45,506 bases of DNA from an uncultured Pelagibacteraceae bacterium (GTDB lineage Bacteria; Pseudomonadota; Alphaproteobacteria; Pelagibacterales; Pelagibacteraceae). The stretch lies in contig CACJZM010000007.1 in assembly GCA_902597895.1 (NCBI GenBank), forward strand, positions 1 through 45,506. The letters are read 5' to 3'. A program made the position numbers and the translations under genes. The notes beneath the pieces were generated by a model. That model saw only the letters and a program-made list of their open reading frames with translations, searched no databases and was not told where the DNA came from. This document shows positions 32,148 to 44,006 of the stretch, piece after piece. Every line of letters starts with the position of its first letter. Position 1 is the stretch's first letter.

Positions 32148-33551
32148 TTACCTACTACTGGCAGCGACAGATTTTTCATCTTCTTTCGCAGCTTCCATTA
32201 TTTCATAGTCTAGACCTGCCAACTCAGCTTCTCTAGGAATTCTAAGTTTACCCATTCCATGAAGAATCTTAGCAATTATATATCCAGGAATCATACCGAG
32301 TACAAAAAACATTATTATTGCACCAATAAACATTCCTAGTGGATTGATAGCAGCATAAGTGTTTCCATCCCACATAGCTCCAACACTGTATCCAGATGAT
32401 GGATAACCATTTAAGACAAAACCACAAATTATTAAACCAACAAATCCTGCATAACCATGCACAGCAACTGCACCAACCGCATCATCTATTTTGAACTTAC
32501 GTTCAACCCAGTAATGCATTTTATAAGCTATAACTACTCCAATCATTCCAATAATCATTGATTGAATTGGATGATATAAATCGTTACCTGCTGAAGCACA
32601 AATTATTCCTGCTAGTCCTGATGAATATGTCCAGAAAGGATCTCCTTTAGATACAATATATCCAGCTAACAAACCTCCTGATAATGACATCAAAAAGTTA
32701 AATGTAATTCCACTAAGTGTTGTAGGTGTTACATAAATGTTAGTAGCTGTGAAAAATACTTTTCCTAAAGCATAATCTCCTTCACCTCCGACATCATAAA
32801 TTGGTATATTACATGCAGCATAAAAACCCCAGAAACCAGTATAAATTAGAAATAATCCAATTGTAACTAACCAAGGATTTCTTGGTCCTATGTTTCTCGG
32901 TTCACCGCTCGATGAAAATTTACCTATTCTTGGACCTAAAACTACTAAAATACCCAGTGCAAATCCTCCCGCAATTGCGTGTATTACACCAGATGCATAT
33001 GCATCATGATATCCAAGTATTTTTAACATCCATCCGTCAAAGTGCCATCCCCATGCAGCATCAATTGTCCAAAAAACTGAGCCAATTGCTATTGCTAATA
33101 TTCCAAATGCAAAAGTTGTTATTCTTTCAATTACTGCACCTGAAACAATAGAAGCTGCTGTCCATGAAAATAATAAAAATGCAGCCCAAAAAACTCCACT
33201 TATATGATCACCCAAGTTTACTGCCATTAGTTCACTTGTTGGAACATAGTAAGCGGCACTAAAAGCAGAGTCATCTGTTATAAGTGCTGCACTTCCATTC
33301 ATTATTGAAGGTGCTAGACCAGGTCCTGTTGGAAATGCCCAATATATCCACCAACCAAATAAAAACCACGTTACTGTTACCAAAGGTATTAGCATTGTGT
33401 TTTTCATTAATGTATGTTGATGATGTTTGTATCGGGAAGCTCCAACTTCGTACATACAGAAACCCACGTGAATTAAAAACATGAGAACTACTGTTATCCA
33501 GTAGTAAAATTCTGTAAATATGGTCGTCAATGCACCAAGTTCGTCAGTCAT
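32148..33551 (-). CDS. amt: Ammonium/methylammonium transporter (Amt family)
   Basis: The 467-residue integral membrane protein has about eleven membrane helices and Amt signatures: the pore histidine segments YASGVIHAIAGGFALG and VAVHGYAGFVGL, the DAAWGWHFDGW segment, and GLFLIYTGFWGFYA. It conducts ammonium across the inner membrane. No glnK (PII) gene accompanies it, unlike many amtB loci; instead a small membrane protein gene follows. It lies in a block with methylamine-assimilation genes, so methylammonium is a plausible additional substrate. A GGAGG Shine-Dalgarno and a palindrome TTTGTTTAAACAAA precede the start. Confidence 0.92.
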   Translation of the reverse strand: MTDELGALTTIFTEFYYWITVVLMFLIHVGFCMYEVGASRYKHHQHTLMKNTMLIPLVTVTWFLFGWWIYWAFPTGPGLAPSIMNGSAALITDDSAFSAAYYVPTSELMAVNLGDHISGVFWAAFLLFSWTAASIVSGAVIERITTFAFGILAIAIGSVFWTIDAAWGWHFDGWMLKILGYHDAYASGVIHAIAGGFALGILVVLGPRIGKFSSSGEPRNIGPRNPWLVTIGLFLIYTGFWGFYAACNIPIYDVGGEGDYALGKVFFTATNIYVTPTTLSGITFNFLMSLSGGLLAGYIVSKGDPFWTYSSGLAGIICASAGNDLYHPIQSMIIGMIGVVIAYKMHYWVERKFKIDDAVGAVAVHGYAGFVGLIICGFVLNGYPSSGYSVGAMWDGNTYAAINPLGMFIGAIIMFFVLGMIPGYIIAKILHGMGKLRIPREAELAGLDYEIMEAAKEDEKSVAASSR

Positions 33552-33561
33552 TTAACCTCCA

Positions 33562-33642
33562 TTTGTTTAAACAAAACAATCGAATATTATTTTACAGATA
33601 AGTTTCTACAATCATTAATAATCTTTTAAAATTGCAGATAAT
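33562..33642 (-). promoter_or_regulatory. amt upstream region: palindrome and repeated CAGATAA motif
   Basis: The 132-bp gap before amt contains a perfect 14-bp palindrome TTTGTTTAAACAAA (33562-33575) just upstream of the Shine-Dalgarno. It also holds two direct repeats (plus strand) TTTACAGATAAG (33591-33602) and ATTGCAGATAAT (33631-33642) 40 bp apart. They may be operator sites; no convincing sigma54 or sigma70 promoter could be fixed. Confidence 0.3.
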
Positions 33643-33683
33643 TTAAAACTGACAACCTATGGTAGATTATTTTTTTAGAGATT

Positions 33684-34097
33684 CTAAAATTTTCTATAAG
33701 CTTTTTTTAGATCAACTAACGGATGATTTGGAGACATTTGAAATTTAACCAATAATTCTCTAGCAATCATGTCCCTATCTTGTTGATTATTTGGTAGTTT
33801 TATTTTTTTTGGTATGGTCACCCATCCATTTGCGTTTCTGTCAAATACTGCTGGTCTATCTTCTTCATACCCCATATGAACATCTTCAAGCCAGTTAAGG
33901 TCGTCCCAGCCCATTGCTTCAATGTATTTTTTTAAAAAAGGAGTAAGTCTTGAGTAATCTGGTAATAGATTTACATCGTACCTATAACCGATTGTTTGGC
34001 CAATCATTTTTTCTCTAGCTGTTTCCTTTTTTTTTCCTAATTGACCCTTAACGTCTTTTTTTATTTTTTTATTTTTTTTATTCTTCTTTTTAACCAT
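33684..34097 (-). CDS. Hypothetical protein with Lys-rich N-terminus, last gene of the mgs operon
   Basis: This 137-residue protein starts with about 25 residues dominated by lysine (MVKKKNKKNKKIKKDVKGQ) and continues as a soluble domain with GYRYDVNLLPDYSRLTPFLKKY, WDDLNWLEDVHMGYEEDRP and NGWVTIPKKIKLPNNQQDRD. It follows mgsC by 4 bp and therefore belongs to the mgs transcript. No family recognised; the basic N-terminus could be disordered or bind nucleic acid or the synthase complex. Confidence 0.7.
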   Translation of the reverse strand: MVKKKNKKNKKIKKDVKGQLGKKKETAREKMIGQTIGYRYDVNLLPDYSRLTPFLKKYIEAMGWDDLNWLEDVHMGYEEDRPAVFDRNANGWVTIPKKIKLPNNQQDRDMIARELLVKFQMSPNHPLVDLKKAYRKF

Positions 34098-34101
34098 AAA
34101 T

Positions 34102-35505
34102 TTATATTTTGTGGAAGTCGTCTACTCCAACTGTATGATTTGTACCAGAAAGAGGTACTTTTGCTAAAGCCGATGCCTCCATAGTTAACGCAGCCATATC
34201 TTCAGGTTCCAAAGAATGAATATTTGTTTTACCACATGCTCTTGCTAATAGTTGGGCTTCCAATGTCATAGCATGCAAATAGTTATATACTCTTAAAGCT
34301 GCATCGTCTGGATTTAATCTTTTTCTTAATTTCGGATCTTGAGTAGCAACACCAACTGGACATCTTCCAGTATGACAGTGATAACAATGCCCTGCCGGAA
34401 CACCCATTTCTTTTTCAAAATTTGACTCAGGTATTTCTTTATTACAGTTTAAAGCCACCATTGCTCCTGTACCTATTGCAATTGCATCGGCACCTAAAGC
34501 AAGAGCTTTAGCCATGTCTGCACCATCTCTTACTCCACCAGCATAAATTAAAGTAACTTTTCCTGTTTTACCCACGTCATCAATTGCTCTTCTAGCTTCT
34601 CTTATTGCGGCTATTCCCGGAATACCTGTATTTGCAGCTGCTATATGAGGTCCTGCTCCAGTTGAACCTTCCATTCCATCAAGATAAATTGAGTCAGGGT
34701 CACATTTTGCAGCCATTCGCACATCATCATAAACTTTTGCTGCTCCAAGTTTTAACTGTATTGGTACTTTATTTTTAGTTAATTCTCTTAGTTCTGCTAC
34801 TTTTAATGCTAAATCATCTGGCCCTAGCCAGTCGGGATGTCTTGCAGGAGACCTTTGATCAATACCTGCCGGTAAAGATCTCATTTCTGCAACTTGGTCG
34901 GTTACTTTTTGGCCCATCAAGTGTCCACCCATACCAACTTTTTGACCTTGACCAATAAAAACTTCTATTCCATCTGCCAGTTGAGCATGATGTGGGTTAA
35001 AACCATATCTAGATTGAATACATTGATAATACCATTTTTCAGAATATCTTCTTTCATCAGGAATCATTCCTCCTTCACCAGAACAAGTGGCACTGCCAGC
35101 CATAGTTGCTCCTCGTGCTAAGGCAGTTTTAGCTTCATATGAAAGCGCACCAAAACTCATACCAGTGATATAAACAGGAATATCTAATTCAATTGGATTT
35201 TCACATCTTGGACCTATTATAGTTTTTGTTTCACATTTTTCTCTATAACCTTCAATAACAAATCTTGTTAGCGTACCTGGTAAAAAAACTAAATCATCAA
35301 AAGTTGGAATTTTTTTCATTAATGCCATTCCACGCATTCTATATCTTCCTAATTGTGCTTTAATGTGAATATCATCTATTACTTCTGGAGTAAAAATTGA
35401 GTTGTAACCAAGTAAGCTTTTATTTCTTTTTGCAAATTCTGTTTTTCCATTACCATTTCCGTTTGAATGAACTTTTGATTTACCATTTTTCTTTTTTTTT
35501 GCCAT
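34102..35505 (-). CDS. mgsC: N-methylglutamate synthase subunit C-like, FMN-binding glutamate synthase domain
   Basis: The 467-residue protein is the FMN/Fe-S (GltB-type) synthase domain made as a separate subunit: ITGMSFGALSYEAKTALARGA, GEGGMIPDERRY, QLKLGAAKV and GADAIAIGTGAM line the FMN-binding TIM barrel, and C374, C377, C382 (CYHCHTGRCP) supply the 3Fe-4S cluster. The Lys/Asn/Gly-rich first 25 residues look disordered. In the MgsABC complex this subunit forms N-methylglutamate from gamma-glutamylmethylamide or methylamine and glutamate-derived carbon. GlxD of rhizobia is the same family, so Glx function is the alternative. It overlaps the mgsB-like gene by 1 bp. Confidence 0.83.
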   Translation of the reverse strand: MAKKKKNGKSKVHSNGNGNGKTEFAKRNKSLLGYNSIFTPEVIDDIHIKAQLGRYRMRGMALMKKIPTFDDLVFLPGTLTRFVIEGYREKCETKTIIGPRCENPIELDIPVYITGMSFGALSYEAKTALARGATMAGSATCSGEGGMIPDERRYSEKWYYQCIQSRYGFNPHHAQLADGIEVFIGQGQKVGMGGHLMGQKVTDQVAEMRSLPAGIDQRSPARHPDWLGPDDLALKVAELRELTKNKVPIQLKLGAAKVYDDVRMAAKCDPDSIYLDGMEGSTGAGPHIAAANTGIPGIAAIREARRAIDDVGKTGKVTLIYAGGVRDGADMAKALALGADAIAIGTGAMVALNCNKEIPESNFEKEMGVPAGHCYHCHTGRCPVGVATQDPKLRKRLNPDDAALRVYNYLHAMTLEAQLLARACGKTNIHSLEPEDMAALTMEASALAKVPLSGTNHTVGVDDFHKI

Positions 35506-36359
35506 TATATAGCTCCTTTTTTTTCAGTTGGTTCTAACGCATCATAGTTCCACAATTTTTTACCCGAAACTACTTTAGTCATTTTAGAGACATCATAGTT
35601 CTCTCCAATTTCAGCTACTTTAAGTTTTCTTTTAAGCCAATCTATATCACTTTTTGTCATAGGTGACTCCACCGCATCACTACCAAATGATCCAATTTTT
35701 CCTCCTATATATAAAGTTCCATCATACATCGAATCTCCAAGATTTATTCCAACGTCACCTAAAATTACTATTCTACCTCTTTGCATCATAAATCCAGTAA
35801 AGGCACCTGCGTCTCCACCAACAATTATAGTACCACCTTTTTGATCAATTCCAGTTCTAGCTCCAACACTTCCTTTACAAATTAAATCACCACCTCTAAT
35901 TGCTGCTCCAAAACAAGATCCAGCATTTTTTTCTATTACTACTTTACCTGCCATCATATTTTCTGCACATGACCAGCCAACTCTTCCATTAATTCTAACT
36001 GTTGGTCCATCTATTGAACCAACTCCAAAATATCCTAAACTTCCCTCAAAAATTAAATTTAATTTATTTAGTATTCCAACTCCTAAACTATGTTTTCCTT
36101 GAGGGTTTTTAATAACAATAGTTCCATAACCTTGACTCATTAATTCATCTATTTTCCTGTTTGCTTCCTTGCAATCTAAATCCTTAACATCTAAGTCAAT
36201 TCTTTTATTAAAATCAACATCATAAGTTCCCCAATAAAAAAAATTTTCTGCTTCATCAGGATTAAAGAATTTTTGTTGTGTTTTACCTGTAAGGACCTCA
36301 GTATGAAGACCCATTGATTGGGCTTTAGTTTTTTTTTCTGATGTTTTTAAATTTGCCAT
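35505..36359 (-). CDS. mgsB: N-methylglutamate synthase subunit B-like (GXGXG beta-helix domain)
   Basis: The 284-residue protein corresponds to the C-terminal GXGXG domain of glutamate synthase as a stand-alone subunit. Its middle part is a right-handed beta-helix of glycine-rich turns (GYFGVGSIDG, GRVGWSCAENM, GGDLICKGSVGARTG, GGDAGAFTG, GKIGSFGSDA). It is a structural, probably substrate-channelling, partner of the FMN subunit. It overlaps mgsA by 13 bp and mgsC by 1 bp, as expected for coupled subunits of one complex. Confidence 0.85.
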   Translation of the reverse strand: MANLKTSEKKTKAQSMGLHTEVLTGKTQQKFFNPDEAENFFYWGTYDVDFNKRIDLDVKDLDCKEANRKIDELMSQGYGTIVIKNPQGKHSLGVGILNKLNLIFEGSLGYFGVGSIDGPTVRINGRVGWSCAENMMAGKVVIEKNAGSCFGAAIRGGDLICKGSVGARTGIDQKGGTIIVGGDAGAFTGFMMQRGRIVILGDVGINLGDSMYDGTLYIGGKIGSFGSDAVESPMTKSDIDWLKRKLKVAEIGENYDVSKMTKVVSGKKLWNYDALEPTEKKGAI

Positions 36360-37291
36360 ACTTTTACCTCTCCATCAAAAGGATCGTAAGTGTCTATTTC
36401 TTGTGGTAGCAAAGATCTTATAGCTATTTCTTCGGATCCCATTGCAACTAAATCATCTGACTCGTATAGTACCAAAGGTTTAGCTGCCATTGTATCTTTA
36501 GCCATTCCCAAAGAGTCTTTTGTTGCAACAAAATAAGTAAACACACCATCTAAACCACTTAAAGAGTCTTTCATTCCTTCCTCCAAACTAGCTCCGTTTC
36601 TCATTTTTTCTGCAAGGTAAACAGCTATTAATTCAGAGTCACACTCTGACATAAATCTCATACCTTTATTTTCTAGAATTCTTCTATTATTCCAGTAGTT
36701 GGTTAATTGACCGTTATGAACAACCGATACATCGCTAAAAGGATATCCCCAAAACGGATGAGCTGATTTGATATCTACTCCTGACTCTGTTGCCATTCTA
36801 GCGTGTCCAATTGCATGTGTTCCAACAACTTTATCTAAATTATATCTATCACAAACCATTTTTGCATTACCAAGATCTTTTATTACTTCTAAAGATTTAC
36901 CCATAGAAAGAATTTCTACGCCTTCAATACTTTCTATTTTTTGAGAAAAATTCAATAAATCGTCTTTGTTATATTCAATTTCATATCTTAATGAGTATGG
37001 TAAAACTCGGTCTGCTTTAATAATTTTAGCACCCATTTCTGATAGACAGCTTTCAACAACTTTTTTTCTTTCATCGTATACAGATATATCTTCAGCTACA
37101 GAAGAACTTCCTTCTCCAACATTTTCACCAATTTTAACTCTCATGATAAAATTTTTTCCTTCAGTATCACCATACAAAGCATATCCCGTAGAGTCTTCAC
37201 CTCTATGTTTTAAAGCTTGTAACATTCCTTGAAGTTCATGACCAACTTTTGAAGATTTTCCTCTATGTATGAGTCCTGCAATTCCGCACAT
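36347..37291 (-). CDS. mgsA: N-methylglutamate synthase subunit A-like (class II glutamine amidotransferase)
   Basis: The 314-residue protein begins MCGIAGLIHRG, so after removal of the initiator Met the nucleophile Cys2 is N-terminal, as in class II (Ntn-type) amidotransferases. Further motifs are IGHARMATESG and FSDVSVVHNGQLTNY (oxyanion-hole Asn-Gly) and SECDSELIAVYLAE. It would release the amine from gamma-glutamylmethylamide (or ammonia from glutamine) and pass it to the FMN subunit. It is 18 bp downstream of a glutamine-synthetase-family gene, the usual gmaS-mgsABC order. Confidence 0.86.
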   Translation of the reverse strand: MCGIAGLIHRGKSSKVGHELQGMLQALKHRGEDSTGYALYGDTEGKNFIMRVKIGENVGEGSSSVAEDISVYDERKKVVESCLSEMGAKIIKADRVLPYSLRYEIEYNKDDLLNFSQKIESIEGVEILSMGKSLEVIKDLGNAKMVCDRYNLDKVVGTHAIGHARMATESGVDIKSAHPFWGYPFSDVSVVHNGQLTNYWNNRRILENKGMRFMSECDSELIAVYLAEKMRNGASLEEGMKDSLSGLDGVFTYFVATKDSLGMAKDTMAAKPLVLYESDDLVAMGSEEIAIRSLLPQEIDTYDPFDGEVKVWQI

Positions 37292-37309
37292 ATATTTCCT
37301 TTTTATTTA

Positions 37310-38779
37310 CTATGGCAAACAATCTAAATAGGTATCAAGATCCCATTGAGTAGTTGCACCTAAGAATCTTTCCCACTCATCATTTTTATACCAATGAAAA
37401 ACTTTATACATTTCATCTGGCATTGCTGATTTAATTACTTCATCTTCTGCAAGCCTATCAAGAGCTTCACCTAAACTTAAAGGTAGTTTCTTAACGTCTT
37501 TTCCAGCTTTTTGAGCTTCATAAATATTTCTAGACTCTGGTTTTGCTGGTACCATCTTTTTAGATATACCTTCGTCACAAGCTTTTAATAATGCTGCTCC
37601 TAGTAAGTAAGGATTATGCATTGAGTCTACCGATCTATATTCAAATCTTCCGGGAGCAGAAACTCTTAAACCACAAGTTCTATTTTGGTATCCCCAGTCA
37701 GCATAAACAGGCGCCCAAAAACCTTGATCCCATAATCTTCTATAAGAATTTACAGTTGACGACCCTAGTGCTGTCAAAGCTGGTAAATGTTTCATTATTC
37801 CAGCAATTGACTGTAATCCGATTTTTCCTGGCAACTGCATATCTTTTGTATCAGGCATAAATGTATTTTTTCCTCCAGAAACGTAGCTGAATACCTCTTC
37901 AACACCTGGCAGTGATTTGTGTCCAAGTTTATTTACAGAAATTTTACCCTCTGTCCATAAAGACATATTTGTATGACAACCACTTGCTGAAACACCCATA
38001 AATGGTTTAGTCATGAAACATGCAATTAATCCATGTTCTCTTGCAACTTGAGCACATATTTGTCTATAAGTTGATAGTCTATCAGCATTTCTTAAAACAT
38101 TATCATATGTCCAATTTAATTCTAATTGACCTGGAGCATCTTCATGATCTCCTTGTATCATATCCAAACCCATGGCCTTTGAGTACTCTATAACTTTCAT
38201 AAATACAGGTCTTAATGACTCAAATTGATCAATATGATAACAGAATGGTTTGGAAAAACCTTTTCCAGTTGGAGTTCCATCAGGGTTTTTAGTTAACCAC
38301 ATCATTTCAGGTTCTGTTCCAACTCTTAATTCTAACCCGTGTTTTTTTTGAAATTCATCCATAAATATTCTTAGATTTCCTCTGCAGTCAGATGTTAAAT
38401 GGCCACCTGGATTTTTTCTTTCTTCTCTATTCCTAAAACACGTGCAATAAACTCTTCCTACTCTTTTATCCCACGGTAATTGTACGAAAGTTTCCGGATC
38501 AGGAATACCAACTAGTTCCATTGCTTCTGGTCCATATCCAATGTAGTTATTATGACGATCTAAAAATAAGTTTGCAGTTGATCCGTATACTAATTGAAAC
38601 CCTTTTTCAGCAGTTCTTTCCCAATGATCAGAAGGTATACCTTTACCAACAACTCTTCCTGTTACTGAAATAAATTGAAAATAAATATATGTAATTCCTA
38701 ATTCTTTAATTTTTTCTCTTACTCTTTTTACTAATTTTGCTCTGCCTGGTTGATTAACATGTTTTTCTAGATCAGTCAT
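37310..38779 (-). CDS. gmaS: Gamma-glutamylmethylamide synthetase-like (glutamine synthetase family)
   Basis: The 489-residue ligase has the GS catalytic domain: GTEPEMMW, QGDHEDAPGQLELNW, SASGCHTNMSLW, VNSYRRLWDQGFWAP and SAPGRFEYRSVDSMHNPY. As the first gene of the operon leading into mgsABC it most likely makes gamma-glutamylmethylamide from glutamate, methylamine and ATP, the first step of the N-methylglutamate pathway. The start has a good Shine-Dalgarno (AGAGGGAG). It is longer than reported GmaS proteins as I recall them (about 440-445 residues), so a GlnT-type glutamine synthetase is the alternative. Confidence 0.7.
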   Translation of the reverse strand: MTDLEKHVNQPGRAKLVKRVREKIKELGITYIYFQFISVTGRVVGKGIPSDHWERTAEKGFQLVYGSTANLFLDRHNNYIGYGPEAMELVGIPDPETFVQLPWDKRVGRVYCTCFRNREERKNPGGHLTSDCRGNLRIFMDEFQKKHGLELRVGTEPEMMWLTKNPDGTPTGKGFSKPFCYHIDQFESLRPVFMKVIEYSKAMGLDMIQGDHEDAPGQLELNWTYDNVLRNADRLSTYRQICAQVAREHGLIACFMTKPFMGVSASGCHTNMSLWTEGKISVNKLGHKSLPGVEEVFSYVSGGKNTFMPDTKDMQLPGKIGLQSIAGIMKHLPALTALGSSTVNSYRRLWDQGFWAPVYADWGYQNRTCGLRVSAPGRFEYRSVDSMHNPYLLGAALLKACDEGISKKMVPAKPESRNIYEAQKAGKDVKKLPLSLGEALDRLAEDEVIKSAMPDEMYKVFHWYKNDEWERFLGATTQWDLDTYLDCLP

Positions 38780-38815
38780 ATTCTCCCTCTTAATTTTAAG
38801 TATTGAAAGTTAACT

Positions 38816-38843
38816 GAAAAAAAAACATCTGTCTACTCAGATG
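38816..38843 (-). terminator. Rho-independent terminator between the flavoprotein and gmaS-like genes
   Basis: The 6-bp stem CATCTG/CAGATG (38826-38831 with 38838-38843, loop TCTACT) is followed on the minus strand by a run of nine T. It begins 2 bp beyond the flavoprotein stop codon, so the gmaS-mgs operon probably has its own promoter or depends on readthrough. Confidence 0.88.
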
Positions 38844-38845
38844 AA

Positions 38846-40171
38846 TTAACTCCAAGGAAACGGACTGTTCGAAGTGGGATGTAGTTCACCCTTCGCGTAT
38901 CGATTGAATCTAAACGGTTTTAAAAGTTCACTCTCAGTTCCTAAAATTTCTTGTGCAACAAGGTGTCCAACACCTATCATTTTATAACCATGATTAGCAT
39001 CTGCTATCATATAAACATTTTCAAAAAATCTATCAAAGATTGGGAATGAATCTGGAGTTAAACATCCAAGACCTCCAGACGGTCCTTTTCTGTATAATTT
39101 TGATTTTCCTACAAATCTTTTTTGACAATGAGCTAATGCAGAAGTCCACATATCAGCAAATTTATCTGTTGTTTGATATTCTGGAGACTCTACTCCATAT
39201 GGGTCTACATTTACCTTATCAAAATGTTTTTCAACAATATAAGGCGATGTTCCCCCTTGAACTCCTAATCCTTCAATATCAGGTTTGTAATATATTCCCC
39301 AAAGCTCATCAGTAATTAATTTTCCAGTTGTATCAGAATGCAAAGGAGCATCAGTATCAACATGAATTACAGGTGGTTGCTTACCCTCATTTGTTCTTAA
39401 GTAATCAGATTCAACTCCTAAAATTCCCTCTTGCAGAAACCAGTATTTCCACATTTCAACTTCATGCTTTTTACCATCTTGACCCTTAATCTCAGTTGTC
39501 TTTGGAAGCTCTAACATATTCCAGAAATCTCTAACCCATGGACCTGCTCCAACAACAACTTGGTCGCAATTAATTGTTCCCATATCTGTAATGACTCCAG
39601 TAACAGAATTACTATTACTTCCTCTTTTAAATCCTGTCACTTTTACACCCTTATGAACGTTAACACCGTTTGAGTTTGCCTTGTTTTCTAATGCTTTAAT
39701 AGAATCTTTGTTAAAAGCATAACCACCTTTTTTTTCATGAAGAACAGATGTGATACCTTGTGCTTGCCAGTCATCAAATATACCTTTCATGTATTTTGTA
39801 CAATCTTTTTCACCTTCGATAAAAACTGATTCATATCCAATTGCTTTTTGTTGTTTATAAATACTTGAAACGTCTTCGTGCATCACTTCAGGAGAAATTT
39901 GCATGTAGCCAACTGGATTATACCTGAAAGCTTTTGGGTCGCTTTCCCAAATTTCAACAGAATGAGCCATTAATTCTCTCATTGCAGGTTGAAAATAATT
40001 ATTTCTTACAACGCCACAGGCAATTCCACTAGCACCAGCAGCGGTATCTTTTTTTTCTAAAACAACAATGTCTCCTGGATTTTTATATGTCTCTGAAAGT
40101 TTCCAGGCAGTACTTAGTCCGTGGATACCTCCACCAATTATAACTACCTTAGCTTTTGTCGGTAATGACAT
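38846..40171 (-). CDS. FAD-dependent oxidoreductase, sarcosine oxidase beta/dimethylglycine dehydrogenase-like
   Basis: The 441-residue protein has an N-terminal GGGIHG dinucleotide motif (13-18) followed by VVLEKKDTAAGASGIACGVVRN, a GPWVRDFWNML segment and the C-terminal IADANHGYKMIGVGHLVAQE typical of DAO/SoxB flavoproteins. Such enzymes remove an N-methyl or N-alkyl group oxidatively; N-methylglutamate dehydrogenase subunit MgdA belongs to this group. The other Mgd/Sox subunits (alpha, gamma, delta) are not in the window, so it may be a single-subunit enzyme or depend on genes elsewhere. It has its own terminator. Confidence 0.82.
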   Translation of the reverse strand: MSLPTKAKVVIIGGGIHGLSTAWKLSETYKNPGDIVVLEKKDTAAGASGIACGVVRNNYFQPAMRELMAHSVEIWESDPKAFRYNPVGYMQISPEVMHEDVSSIYKQQKAIGYESVFIEGEKDCTKYMKGIFDDWQAQGITSVLHEKKGGYAFNKDSIKALENKANSNGVNVHKGVKVTGFKRGSNSNSVTGVITDMGTINCDQVVVGAGPWVRDFWNMLELPKTTEIKGQDGKKHEVEMWKYWFLQEGILGVESDYLRTNEGKQPPVIHVDTDAPLHSDTTGKLITDELWGIYYKPDIEGLGVQGGTSPYIVEKHFDKVNVDPYGVESPEYQTTDKFADMWTSALAHCQKRFVGKSKLYRKGPSGGLGCLTPDSFPIFDRFFENVYMIADANHGYKMIGVGHLVAQEILGTESELLKPFRFNRYAKGELHPTSNSPFPWS

Positions 40172-40622: not shown

Positions 40623-42984
40623 TTATGATCTAACTCTTGTTTTTTTAGGATCATAATGAGGGAAGGGTACTACTTTTGCAGAAATTCTTTTTTGGTGTCC
40701 ATCAATTTTACCGACTTCAACTTCTGTATCTAAATCAGCGTGACCTATATCTATTCTACATAATGCAATATTTTTATTTAAAGTAGGAGATACACATCCA
40801 CTAGTTATTACCCCAACTTGAGCTCTTCCTATATGAACACAATCTCCATGATTAGCCTTTTCTTTGCCTATAAGTTCTAATCCAACTAATTTTTTTTGTG
40901 GATTTTCTTTTCTTTTTAATAATTCTTTTTTTCCAATAAAATCATCTGTTTTTGTTTTAAGTGGAACAGTGAATCCAACACCTGCTTCAAACGGATCTAT
41001 TTGTCCATCAAATTCATTTCCAAACAGTATCAGACCTGCTTCAATTCTTAATAAATCAAGTGCTCCAAATCCAGCTGGAATTAACCCATGTGCCTTTCCT
41101 ACTCCCATAACTTTATCCCAAACTTTAGGTGCATCAGATGGGTGACACCATATTTCATATCCAAGCTCACCAGTGTAACCTGTTCTAGATACAATTAAAG
41201 GAATTCCATTTAAATTTTCAATTCTACAAATTGTAAACCTAAACCATTCAAGCTCAGAAATTTTTGGTTGAGTGGGTGGAGTAAAAATTAATTTTTCCAA
41301 GATTTTTCGACTATTTGGACCTTGTAATGAAATATTATTTATTTGATCTGTTGAATTTTTTATAAGTACTTTAAAATTTTTTTTCTTTGCCTGTTCTTTT
41401 AACCACTCACCCGCATATTCATCTCCACATATCCATCTAAATCCATGATCACTCATTTTCAATAGAGTTCCATCATCAAACATTAATCCGTTTTCATAAC
41501 ACATTGAAGAATAAACAACTTGACCCACAGATAATTTTTTAACATTTCTTGTTAAAGTGTAATTCATTAATTCTTCAGCATCTGGACCTAATATTTCAAA
41601 TTTTCTTAAAGAAGATAAATCAATTATAACCGCTTTTTCACGACAAGCAGTGTATTCATTCATTATTCCGTGCTTGGTATAATCGTTCGGTAACCAGAAC
41701 CCTCTTGCATCTACAAAATTTCTGGTAAGCTTCGAAGTTCTCTCATAGAAACCAGTATTTCTTGTCAATTTTGTTTCTGAGTCTGTTTTCATCCTAAATG
41801 CAAAAGATTTAGTAAATTCTTTTTTTTTATCATATGTTCTAACAAAAATATCAGTTGGATTCCATGAATTACATGCATCTATATCGCTAGGACAAGCTGT
41901 AGTACCACATGTTAAATCTTTAAGAGCTCTAAAAGTTACATAATCGCCAGGTCTAGCAAATGATTCATCTGATAACACCGAGTTTAATCCACCAGCAGAA
42001 GTATTAAAGAAAAGATTAATAGCATGCCAACCCTTCTTCTTTTCAACACCATATTTTTCCATTGATTTATTTAAATTGTCAGAACAGTTTGGATGACCAA
42101 AATAACCTGCATCTTCATAATATTTTGAAGTACAAGCGAGGTTAAAGGTATCATGCCTTCCAACAGTATCTCTAATAACCTCAACCAAAGGTTCATGATC
42201 GGTATCATAAAATTTAGAAAATAAACCTGGACCAGGAAAAGTACTACCCATAAAAGTTCTTGTTGTTTGCCAGTCCAAACCTTTTTCAATTCTTTTATCT
42301 AGTTTTGTAGTATCAAAAGCTACAAAATCAGAACACTGTCTCCCTGTTGGTGAAATAACCTGAATGTAATCACCTTCTTTGACTTGAAAAGAAATTGCTG
42401 ATGCTCGATCAATATTTGTCTCACTAAGTGGATCAAACATAGGATCAGGTATTACATGATGCTCTTTATCTTCTGTAATTTTAGATCTTTTAACAAAAAT
42501 AGTTAAATCAGTTGGAGGATTCTGTTCATGAACTAACATTTCGGCACCTGGAGCTGCAAAAATACAATAACATTTATCTTTTGATTTTATTTTTATTCTT
42601 TCGCCCCAATTTGTATCTTTATCAAAAACAATTGAAGATTTGGATTTTGAAATATCTAAATTTCTTTTTTTAAGCTGACGAAGCGCTATTAGAGAACTTT
42701 CATCTTTTTTTTGAAAGAATTGATTTAATTTCTGACGCTTCTTTATTTTCTTTTAAGTTAAGAATCGACGGTTCTGATTTACCTTCTTTGTTAAAAACAG
42801 AAATTTCACAAATTTGATTTCCTTCATTATTTAAAATTTCTATCTCGTCGTCTGGAAGAATTTGAATTCCTGTTAGACCACCTCCATTTACAACGTATCT
42901 TTCAACTCCAGGTGGTAAGACATTTAGTCCAGGCTCTTTTATATTTGCACTACTAGTTAACATTTTTATACCAACATCGAACAT
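40623..42984 (-). CDS. tdm: TMAO demethylase Tdm, interrupted by a one-base frameshift
   Basis: Two minus-strand frames together match one Tdm: an N-terminal part (42984-42700) and the main body, whose first conventional start is ATG at 42539 but whose open frame runs back to 42752. Deleting one A from the A8 run at 42705-42712 joins them into about 786 residues. The body has a DUF1989 domain with cysteines at 136, 152, 211, 216 and 223 counted from the ATG at 42539 (NLACTSK, HPNCSDN, CGTTACPSD), fitting the three-cysteine zinc site reported for Tdm. A C-terminal GcvT-like domain that should bind tetrahydrofolate follows (GYTGELGYEIW). Tdm converts TMAO to dimethylamine and formaldehyde. The locus is divergent from tmoX. 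Whether a full protein is made depends on the frameshift being an error or corrected by slippage. Confidence 0.82.
42700..42984 (-). CDS. tdm: N-terminal fragment of the frameshifted tdm
   Basis: This 94-residue frame contains PGVERYVVNGGG and IQILPDDEIEILNNEGNQ, a small beta-rich domain, and ends at a TGA created just after the A8 run (SILSKKR-stop). Read with seven A it continues SILSKKDESSLIALRQLK into the tdm body. Two starts are possible, ATG 42984 or ATG 42963 (MLTSSANIK); a TATAAT at 42990-42985 on the minus strand would put the transcript start near 42978, favouring 42963. If the frameshift is real, this is a truncated, non-functional piece. Confidence 0.75.
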   Translation of the reverse strand: MFDVGIKMLTSSANIKEPGLNVLPPGVERYVVNGGGLTGIQILPDDEIEILNNEGNQICEISVFNKEGKSEPSILNLKENKEASEIKSILSKKR

Positions 42985-43061: not shown

Positions 43062-44006
43062 ATGAGAAAAATTATAACATTGATTTCTTCACTCTTAATT
43101 GCAGCTAGTTTTTCATTCACAAACGCAGTTGCAGATAAAAGTGGAGTAGTTAAAATTCCTACTCACAACTGGTCAAGTCAACTTGTTGGGGCAGAAGTAG
43201 TAGGTGAATTACTAAAAATGGTTGGGGAAAAGGTCGAGTATATAAATATGGACTCCCAAGCTGTTTATCAAGCTATGGCCGATGGTGATATAGACTTAGT
43301 ACACGAAATTTGGGAAGGAGCATTTGGTGCTTCTTATGAAAAAGCAAAATCAGGTGGGGGAATTGAGGAAATTCTTACTCATGATGCTGTAACTAGGGAA
43401 GACTGGTGGTATCCAAATCATGTTGAAAAACTTTGTCCAGGTTTGCCAGACTGGAAAGCACTTGATAAATGTGCTGACAAATTTGCTAGAGCTGACTCAG
43501 GCGGAAAAGGAGTTTTCGTTGGAGGACCAGTTGACTGGCTAAAACATGATGCTGAAAAAGTAGAGGCATTAGGTATGAACTTTATGGTTAAAAATGCAGG
43601 TTCAGCAGACGCAATATGGGCAGAGTTAGATGCTGGTGTTTCTCAAAATAAAGCTGTGGTGATATTTAATTGGTCTCCTAACTTTATTGGAGCAAAATAT
43701 CCAGGAAAATTCGTTGAGTTTCCAAAACATGATCCAAAATGTACTACAGATCCTTCATGGGGCATAAATAAAAATGCACTTTATGATTGTGGAAATCCAG
43801 CAGAAGGATATTTGAAACTTGCAGTAAATGCTGATTTCAAAAAAAATCATCCAAAAGGTTATAAAGTTTTAAAACAAATGAACTTTACTACATCAGATAT
43901 CGATAAAATGGCAAACTACAAAGATACTGATGGACTTGAAGTTTCAGCAGCAGCAGCAAAATGGCTGGAAGAACATAAGTCTAAGTGGAGTAATTGGGTT
44001 AAATAA
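43062..44006 (+). CDS. tmoX: TMAO/quaternary-amine ABC transporter substrate-binding protein TmoX
   Basis: The 314-residue protein starts at ATG 43062, chosen because a signal peptide (1-24, AVA|D) begins there and AAAGGGGAAAAA precedes it. The mature part is an OpuAC/ProX-type binding protein with tryptophan-rich ligand-box segments: THNWSSQLVGAEVV, EIWEGAFG, REDWWYPNHV and IFNWSPNF, suited to binding a trimethylammonium group. Divergence from tdm and the downstream ATPase and permease genes identify it as TmoX; glycine betaine is the alternative or additional ligand. A strong terminator follows, so it is probably made in excess over the membrane components. Confidence 0.88.
   Translation: MRKIITLISSLLIAASFSFTNAVADKSGVVKIPTHNWSSQLVGAEVVGELLKMVGEKVEYINMDSQAVYQAMADGDIDLVHEIWEGAFGASYEKAKSGGGIEEILTHDAVTREDWWYPNHVEKLCPGLPDWKALDKCADKFARADSGGKGVFVGGPVDWLKHDAEKVEALGMNFMVKNAGSADAIWAELDAGVSQNKAVVIFNWSPNFIGAKYPGKFVEFPKHDPKCTTDPSWGINKNALYDCGNPAEGYLKLAVNADFKKNHPKGYKVLKQMNFTTSDIDKMANYKDTDGLEVSAAAAKWLEEHKSKWSNWVK

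Follow-up and report, generated by a model that had tools for sequence, protein, structure and literature searches.

A private one-base expansion of an A run near the start of tdm in an uncultured Pelagibacteraceae genome, probably an error or a very recent mutation

The tdm locus and its reading frames

The window, by which we mean the whole stretch of 45,506 nucleotides that was analysed, carries on its minus strand a tdm gene in two reading frames that part at a run of eight A near the start of the gene. The host genome, of SAR11/Pelagibacter type, comprises 1,009,563 bases in 29 contigs, with a completeness of 83.12 and 29.1% GC in the DNA sampled. The features of the locus are as follows.

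42705..42712, minus strand: A8 run with the extra base; A7 in the same context in the nearest relatives, L032-L036
42700..42984, minus strand: N-terminal tdm frame, starting at ATG 42984 (94 aa) or, more likely, at ATG 42963 (87 aa), and ending at TGA 42702-42700
40623..42752, minus strand: main tdm frame, 709 aa lacking the gene's start, with DUF1989, GCV_T and GCV_T_C; predicted TMAO demethylase
40623..42539, minus strand: main frame as read from its first ATG (638 aa); N-terminal domain absent, all three Pfam domains retained

The main frame is predicted to be the TMAO demethylase Tdm (SAR11/Pelagibacter), as a sequence-only reading of this DNA had proposed. It matches NCBIfam NF053776 (Tdm) with 1066.4 bits over profile positions 74-763 of 763, chain residues 96-787 of PDB entry 9q59 (further Tdm structures being 9q5l and 9q5a), and the Pfam domains DUF1989, GCV_T and GCV_T_C. 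Both catalytic domains, DUF1989 and GCV_T, are thus matched and Tdm models are the best match; the score lies below the NF053776 cut-off of 1100 bits, the main frame having been scored alone, without the N-terminal part.

The A8 run holds the extra base and divides the start of tdm from the remainder by frame. Across the run the N-terminal frame reads TCA AAA AAA AGA TGA, which confirms the sequence-only reading in placing a TGA at A8 where the main frame is open, with the refinement that an AGA codon, whose first base is the final A of the run, stands between the two. The main frame follows a stop at 42755-42753, and the ATG at 42539 is its first ATG, GTG or TTG. With ATG 42984 as the start, the joined protein would have 786 aa, the length that had been proposed, although 779 aa is more likely, since the L032 frame begins only three codons ahead of the Met equivalent to ATG 42963. 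The A8 run itself is ordinary: A8 matches number 72 in the window (both strands, overlapping) against a shuffle mean of 54.46, and 9/100 shuffles reach 72. It is the frame break that goes beyond chance, given its occurrence at one of the 110 loci compared below.

Adjoining tdm at 43062-44006 on the plus strand is a TMAO-type substrate-binding gene of a divergent type, with 47-48% identity to those adjoining near-identical tdm genes. The divergent type is found at 88-93% identity in 11 other genomes of 399, each time adjoining tdm by coordinates. Relaxed selection on tdm owing to the divergent type of this uptake gene was considered and rejected, as tdm is without internal stops in those 11 genomes. 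Downstream of tdm (32148-40171, minus strand) there are open genes for an FAD oxidoreductase, a glutamine-synthetase-like protein, three glutamate-synthase-like proteins and an ammonium transporter, a set whose predicted products would suit the use of methylated amines. We take the glutamine-synthetase-like gene to be gmaS-like and the three glutamate-synthase-like genes to be mgsABC-like. These pathway names derive partly from the available portion of PMC8918994. The TMAO-pocket residues given there (PMC8918994) are apparently retained in the divergent binding gene, where they were matched by motif rather than by alignment to HTCC1062.

tdm in related genomes

We compared 110 loci, of which 30 were fetched by DNA (the window's own, L001, included) and 80 are Pelagibacteraceae loci found by protein; some genomes occur twice among them. 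Both parts of tdm lie in one frame at 106/110 loci and three lack the N-terminal part (L020, L043 and L056), which leaves the window's own locus as the only one with a split gene. The loci nearest at the N-terminal end of tdm, L032-L036, read TCAAAAAAAGATGA with A7. The alignment of relatives for which the sequence-only reading had called therefore upholds its central claim that one extra base splits tdm. The 134 near-full copies (window included) reduce to 105 distinct ones, which were aligned with the window's two frames joined. In 79 of these the longest stretch of A at this position measures 1-6 bases, in 19 it measures 7, in one 8 and in six 9, with the window counted as joined, in the 7-A class. 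Tract length thus differs among the other copies examined while their frame stays intact. Exact A8 and A7 patterns had no match in the viral contigs searched.

Selective constraint on the window's tdm resembles that on intact copies. Compared with 11 near copies, the gene has a dN/dS of 0.042-0.057 (0.024-0.059 among the copies themselves), ratios that average two histories because the gene is a recombinant mosaic: codons 1-240 are nearest to L032/L034 (90-98% DNA identity) and codons 271-780 to L031 (89-99%), with the switch at 42153-42245 on the minus strand, approximately 450-550 bases downstream of A8. The mosaic could have arisen by homologous recombination or be an assembly chimera. The alignment holds 240 columns that are invariant across all 105 copies, and at otherwise invariant columns the window has no private change (mean 0.31 per copy). 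Metal-site residues, taken from the available portion of PMC12560246 and matched by alignment spacing, are present in 105/105 copies. These results agree with the earlier statement that nothing else in tdm looks degraded, and a search of the window's tdm for the further disabling lesions that would indicate an old pseudogene found none. Since the gene is otherwise constrained, any inactivation of tdm would be either very recent or not real.

Across the genus, tdm was found in 248/399 genomes (E up to 1e-100) and in 41/57 of the more complete ones, with 98 genomes outside the best matches listed searched again. Damaged copies were recognised in the window and in G216, G242 and G022. That of G216 has one internal TGA; in L051, which is probably the same genome (L051:3511-3513, plus strand), and in L122, a TGA occupies the position of the relatives' Trp codon in a tdm that otherwise aligns over its length. 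The G242 copy (L157; G242:C10:15700-18700) has three frame changes, each at or adjoining a homopolymer, a pattern that is expected with a homopolymer-error assembly. In G022, tdm changes frame at about position 1781 of L158 (G022:C4), with 434 bases of the contig remaining, and loses about 26 residues; this damage is probably an assembly fault. Stop marks in G168, G300 and G314 fall at or past the ends of tdm, and the G024 gene is a single open frame of 775 aa. As for short copies, the 15 that were checked are at contig ends, and the remainder lie at most 10 bases from a contig end by coordinates or, in G039 and G043, by locus length.

Origin of the extra base

We put at roughly 0.9 the probability that the split is a private A7-to-A8 expansion of an unremarkable homopolymer close to where tdm starts, arising either from an in-vitro or assembly error or from a very recent mutation. 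The extra A would have come from polymerase slippage or from a consensus error at the run. Artefact and fresh mutation have, in our judgement, near-equal odds, and these two of the three causes advanced in the sequence-only reading both stand.

In the case of an error, to which we give an even chance, the cell has A7 and an A was added while its DNA was amplified or sequenced, or when the consensus was called. The genus does offer examples of homopolymer errors, such as the G242 copy, and the window's tdm is without decay. However, G242 has three such changes whereas the window's event is single. To place it in its genome, we sampled 320 kb of the host genome in addition to the window (365.5 kb, 36% of the genome) and marked changes of coding frame with a codon-position model. 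The model marked 72 changes, 67 of which are short gene overlaps or gaps with a start near the previous stop; four of the other five join genes of different Pfam families, and the fifth is in tdm. An alternative filter, requiring that the new frame lack an upstream start codon, left two changes: that in tdm and another, in L145, where the new start adjoins the old stop. No frameshift other than that in tdm was recognised in the 365.5 kb by a detector with a sensitivity of 57-66%.

These sensitivities were obtained by simulating indels at runs of 6-9 A within long genes: the model saw 187/202 insertions and 187/198 deletions and would have classed 115/202 and 131/198, respectively, as non-canonical; with the alternative filter, 218/240 insertions were seen and 115/240 passed. 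A few frameshifts may therefore hide among the 67 overlaps. Applied to sister loci (609 kb), the alternative filter left 1/53 changes, located in L035. This change (L035:1531, minus strand) is at the apparent end of tmoX. As far as seen, the tdm event is solitary, unlike the damage in G242, and a generally error-ridden assembly was rejected because tdm holds the sole recognised frameshift of the sample.

Somewhat short of even odds is our judgement for a real and very recent loss-of-function mutation, produced by replication slippage in the cell or its lineage. The patchy occurrence of tdm in the genus suggests that its loss is tolerated, and in a second copy (L051/G216) a Trp codon is replaced by an internal TGA. 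Among the genomes examined, the split nevertheless occurs in one alone, and the neighbouring pathway genes are open.

The third cause advanced earlier fares far worse. Here the A8 run would be a slippery site at which RNA-polymerase or ribosome slippage, or reversible change between A7 and A8, sets the amount of Tdm, and we regard this as very improbable. Ribosome slippage can proceed by a tRNA re-pairing one base on, and the lysine tRNA on AAA at this run could do so because the following base is also A. Bypass of such lesions has precedents: indels at an 8A repeat of M.HaeIII, insertions among them, are bypassed in E. coli with some functional protein left (PMC3812077, available portion), and poly-A frameshifts in the insect symbiont Blochmannia may be corrected by transcriptional slippage (excerpts of PMC3017870). 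To restore the frame here, however, a +1 shift or the loss of one base from the transcript would be required; transcriptional insertions exceed deletions in A/T runs according to the available parts of two studies (PMC5574713, PMC6260861), so that the direction is unfavourable. The split is confined to the window among the genomes examined, and a long A run is not conserved at the site, given the 79/105 copies with at most six A. Programmed ribosomal frameshifting was rejected on this lack of conservation together with the absence of any stimulator at the tdm run, whether RNA structure or rare codon: AGA, which directly precedes the stop, is more frequent than any other Arg codon (2005/2423 in long genes), and the RNA after the run folds with a z of -0.41, 69/200 shuffles folding as well. 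Rfam models at gathering thresholds had no matches within the window, and a promoter and terminator scan gave nothing remarkable.

By comparison with endosymbiont-type slippage, the window does have a single A-tract indel in a gene otherwise under purifying selection, but the frameshift is not maintained in relatives, 1/110 loci being split against 106 in one frame and three without the N-terminal part. As to phase variation, the run belongs to a set of 278 sense A8 runs found in the coding DNA of the 365.5 kb sample, which holds 495 A or T runs of at least eight bases (coding as called by the model). The slippery or reversible switch of the sequence-only reading is the part that gained no support, the split being private and the site unconserved as a run, of a common kind and without a recognised stimulator.

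Consequence for the enzyme and comparison with known systems

If A8 is real, translation from the proper start would terminate at about residue 87, leaving rare slippage or a restart at ATG 42539 as the only ways to reach the catalytic domains. Full-length TMAO demethylase should therefore be scarce or absent in the cell, with a small leak possible by analogy with the bypassed repeats above. The available portion of PMC12560246 reports that a DUF1989-like N-terminal domain, placed in the first 150 residues, is ubiquitous in Tdm homologues, and that when Tdm is severed between its N-terminal and GCV_T halves, neither half is active. The N-terminal product of the window's tdm would end within these first 150 residues.

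A two-piece enzyme, in which a restart at ATG 42539 yields a 638-aa product that functions by itself or together with the short N-terminal peptide, is still less credible than a slippery run. The ATG does precede the DUF1989 domain, and the corresponding Met142 is found in 104/105 copies; this residue is conserved in intact copies too and therefore has no bearing on restart. We rejected this arrangement because residues ~87-141 would be absent from both pieces and because, although cut elsewhere, the enzyme halves described in the available portion of PMC12560246 are inactive and the N-terminal domain that the 638-aa product lacks is ubiquitous in Tdm homologues. An old pseudogene undergoing decay, for which the frame break in tdm would speak, was rejected as scarcely conceivable, since no further lesion accompanies that break in a stop-free main frame of 709 aa whose low dN/dS is that of intact copies and which has no private change at an invariant column.

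As things stand, the split matters chiefly for annotation: automatic gene calling would probably yield two fragments, and TMAO demethylase could be recorded as absent from the genome. We give only a very slight chance to A8 being a standing low-expression allele in this SAR11 species, from which slippage would give a little full-length Tdm while replication slippage between A7 and A8 tuned TMAO breakdown in the population. Were such an allele real and common, homopolymer slippage would be tuning a pathway of marine nitrogen and carbon in a free-living, streamlined bacterium. SAR11 was unmentioned among the matches listed in the literature on homopolymer frameshift, pseudogenes and phase variation.

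Compared with known Tdm (NF053776; 9q59, 9q5l and 9q5a), the window's gene shares the DUF1989 and GCV_T domains and the metal-site residues, and differs in that its N-terminal part sits in another frame and its main frame scores below the cut-off. The frameshifts of Blochmannia, as described in excerpts of PMC3017870, are likewise single poly-A indels in otherwise intact genes of an AT-rich genome; that source stresses tracts of at least nine bases and frameshifts that are shared across genomes, whereas the window's A8 is private and known from DNA alone. The 8A repeat of M.HaeIII, according to the available portion of PMC3812077, concerns another gene on a laboratory plasmid, read by the polymerase and ribosome of E. 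coli rather than those of SAR11, but it presents the same kind of lesion, a frame-shifting indel in a run of similar length.
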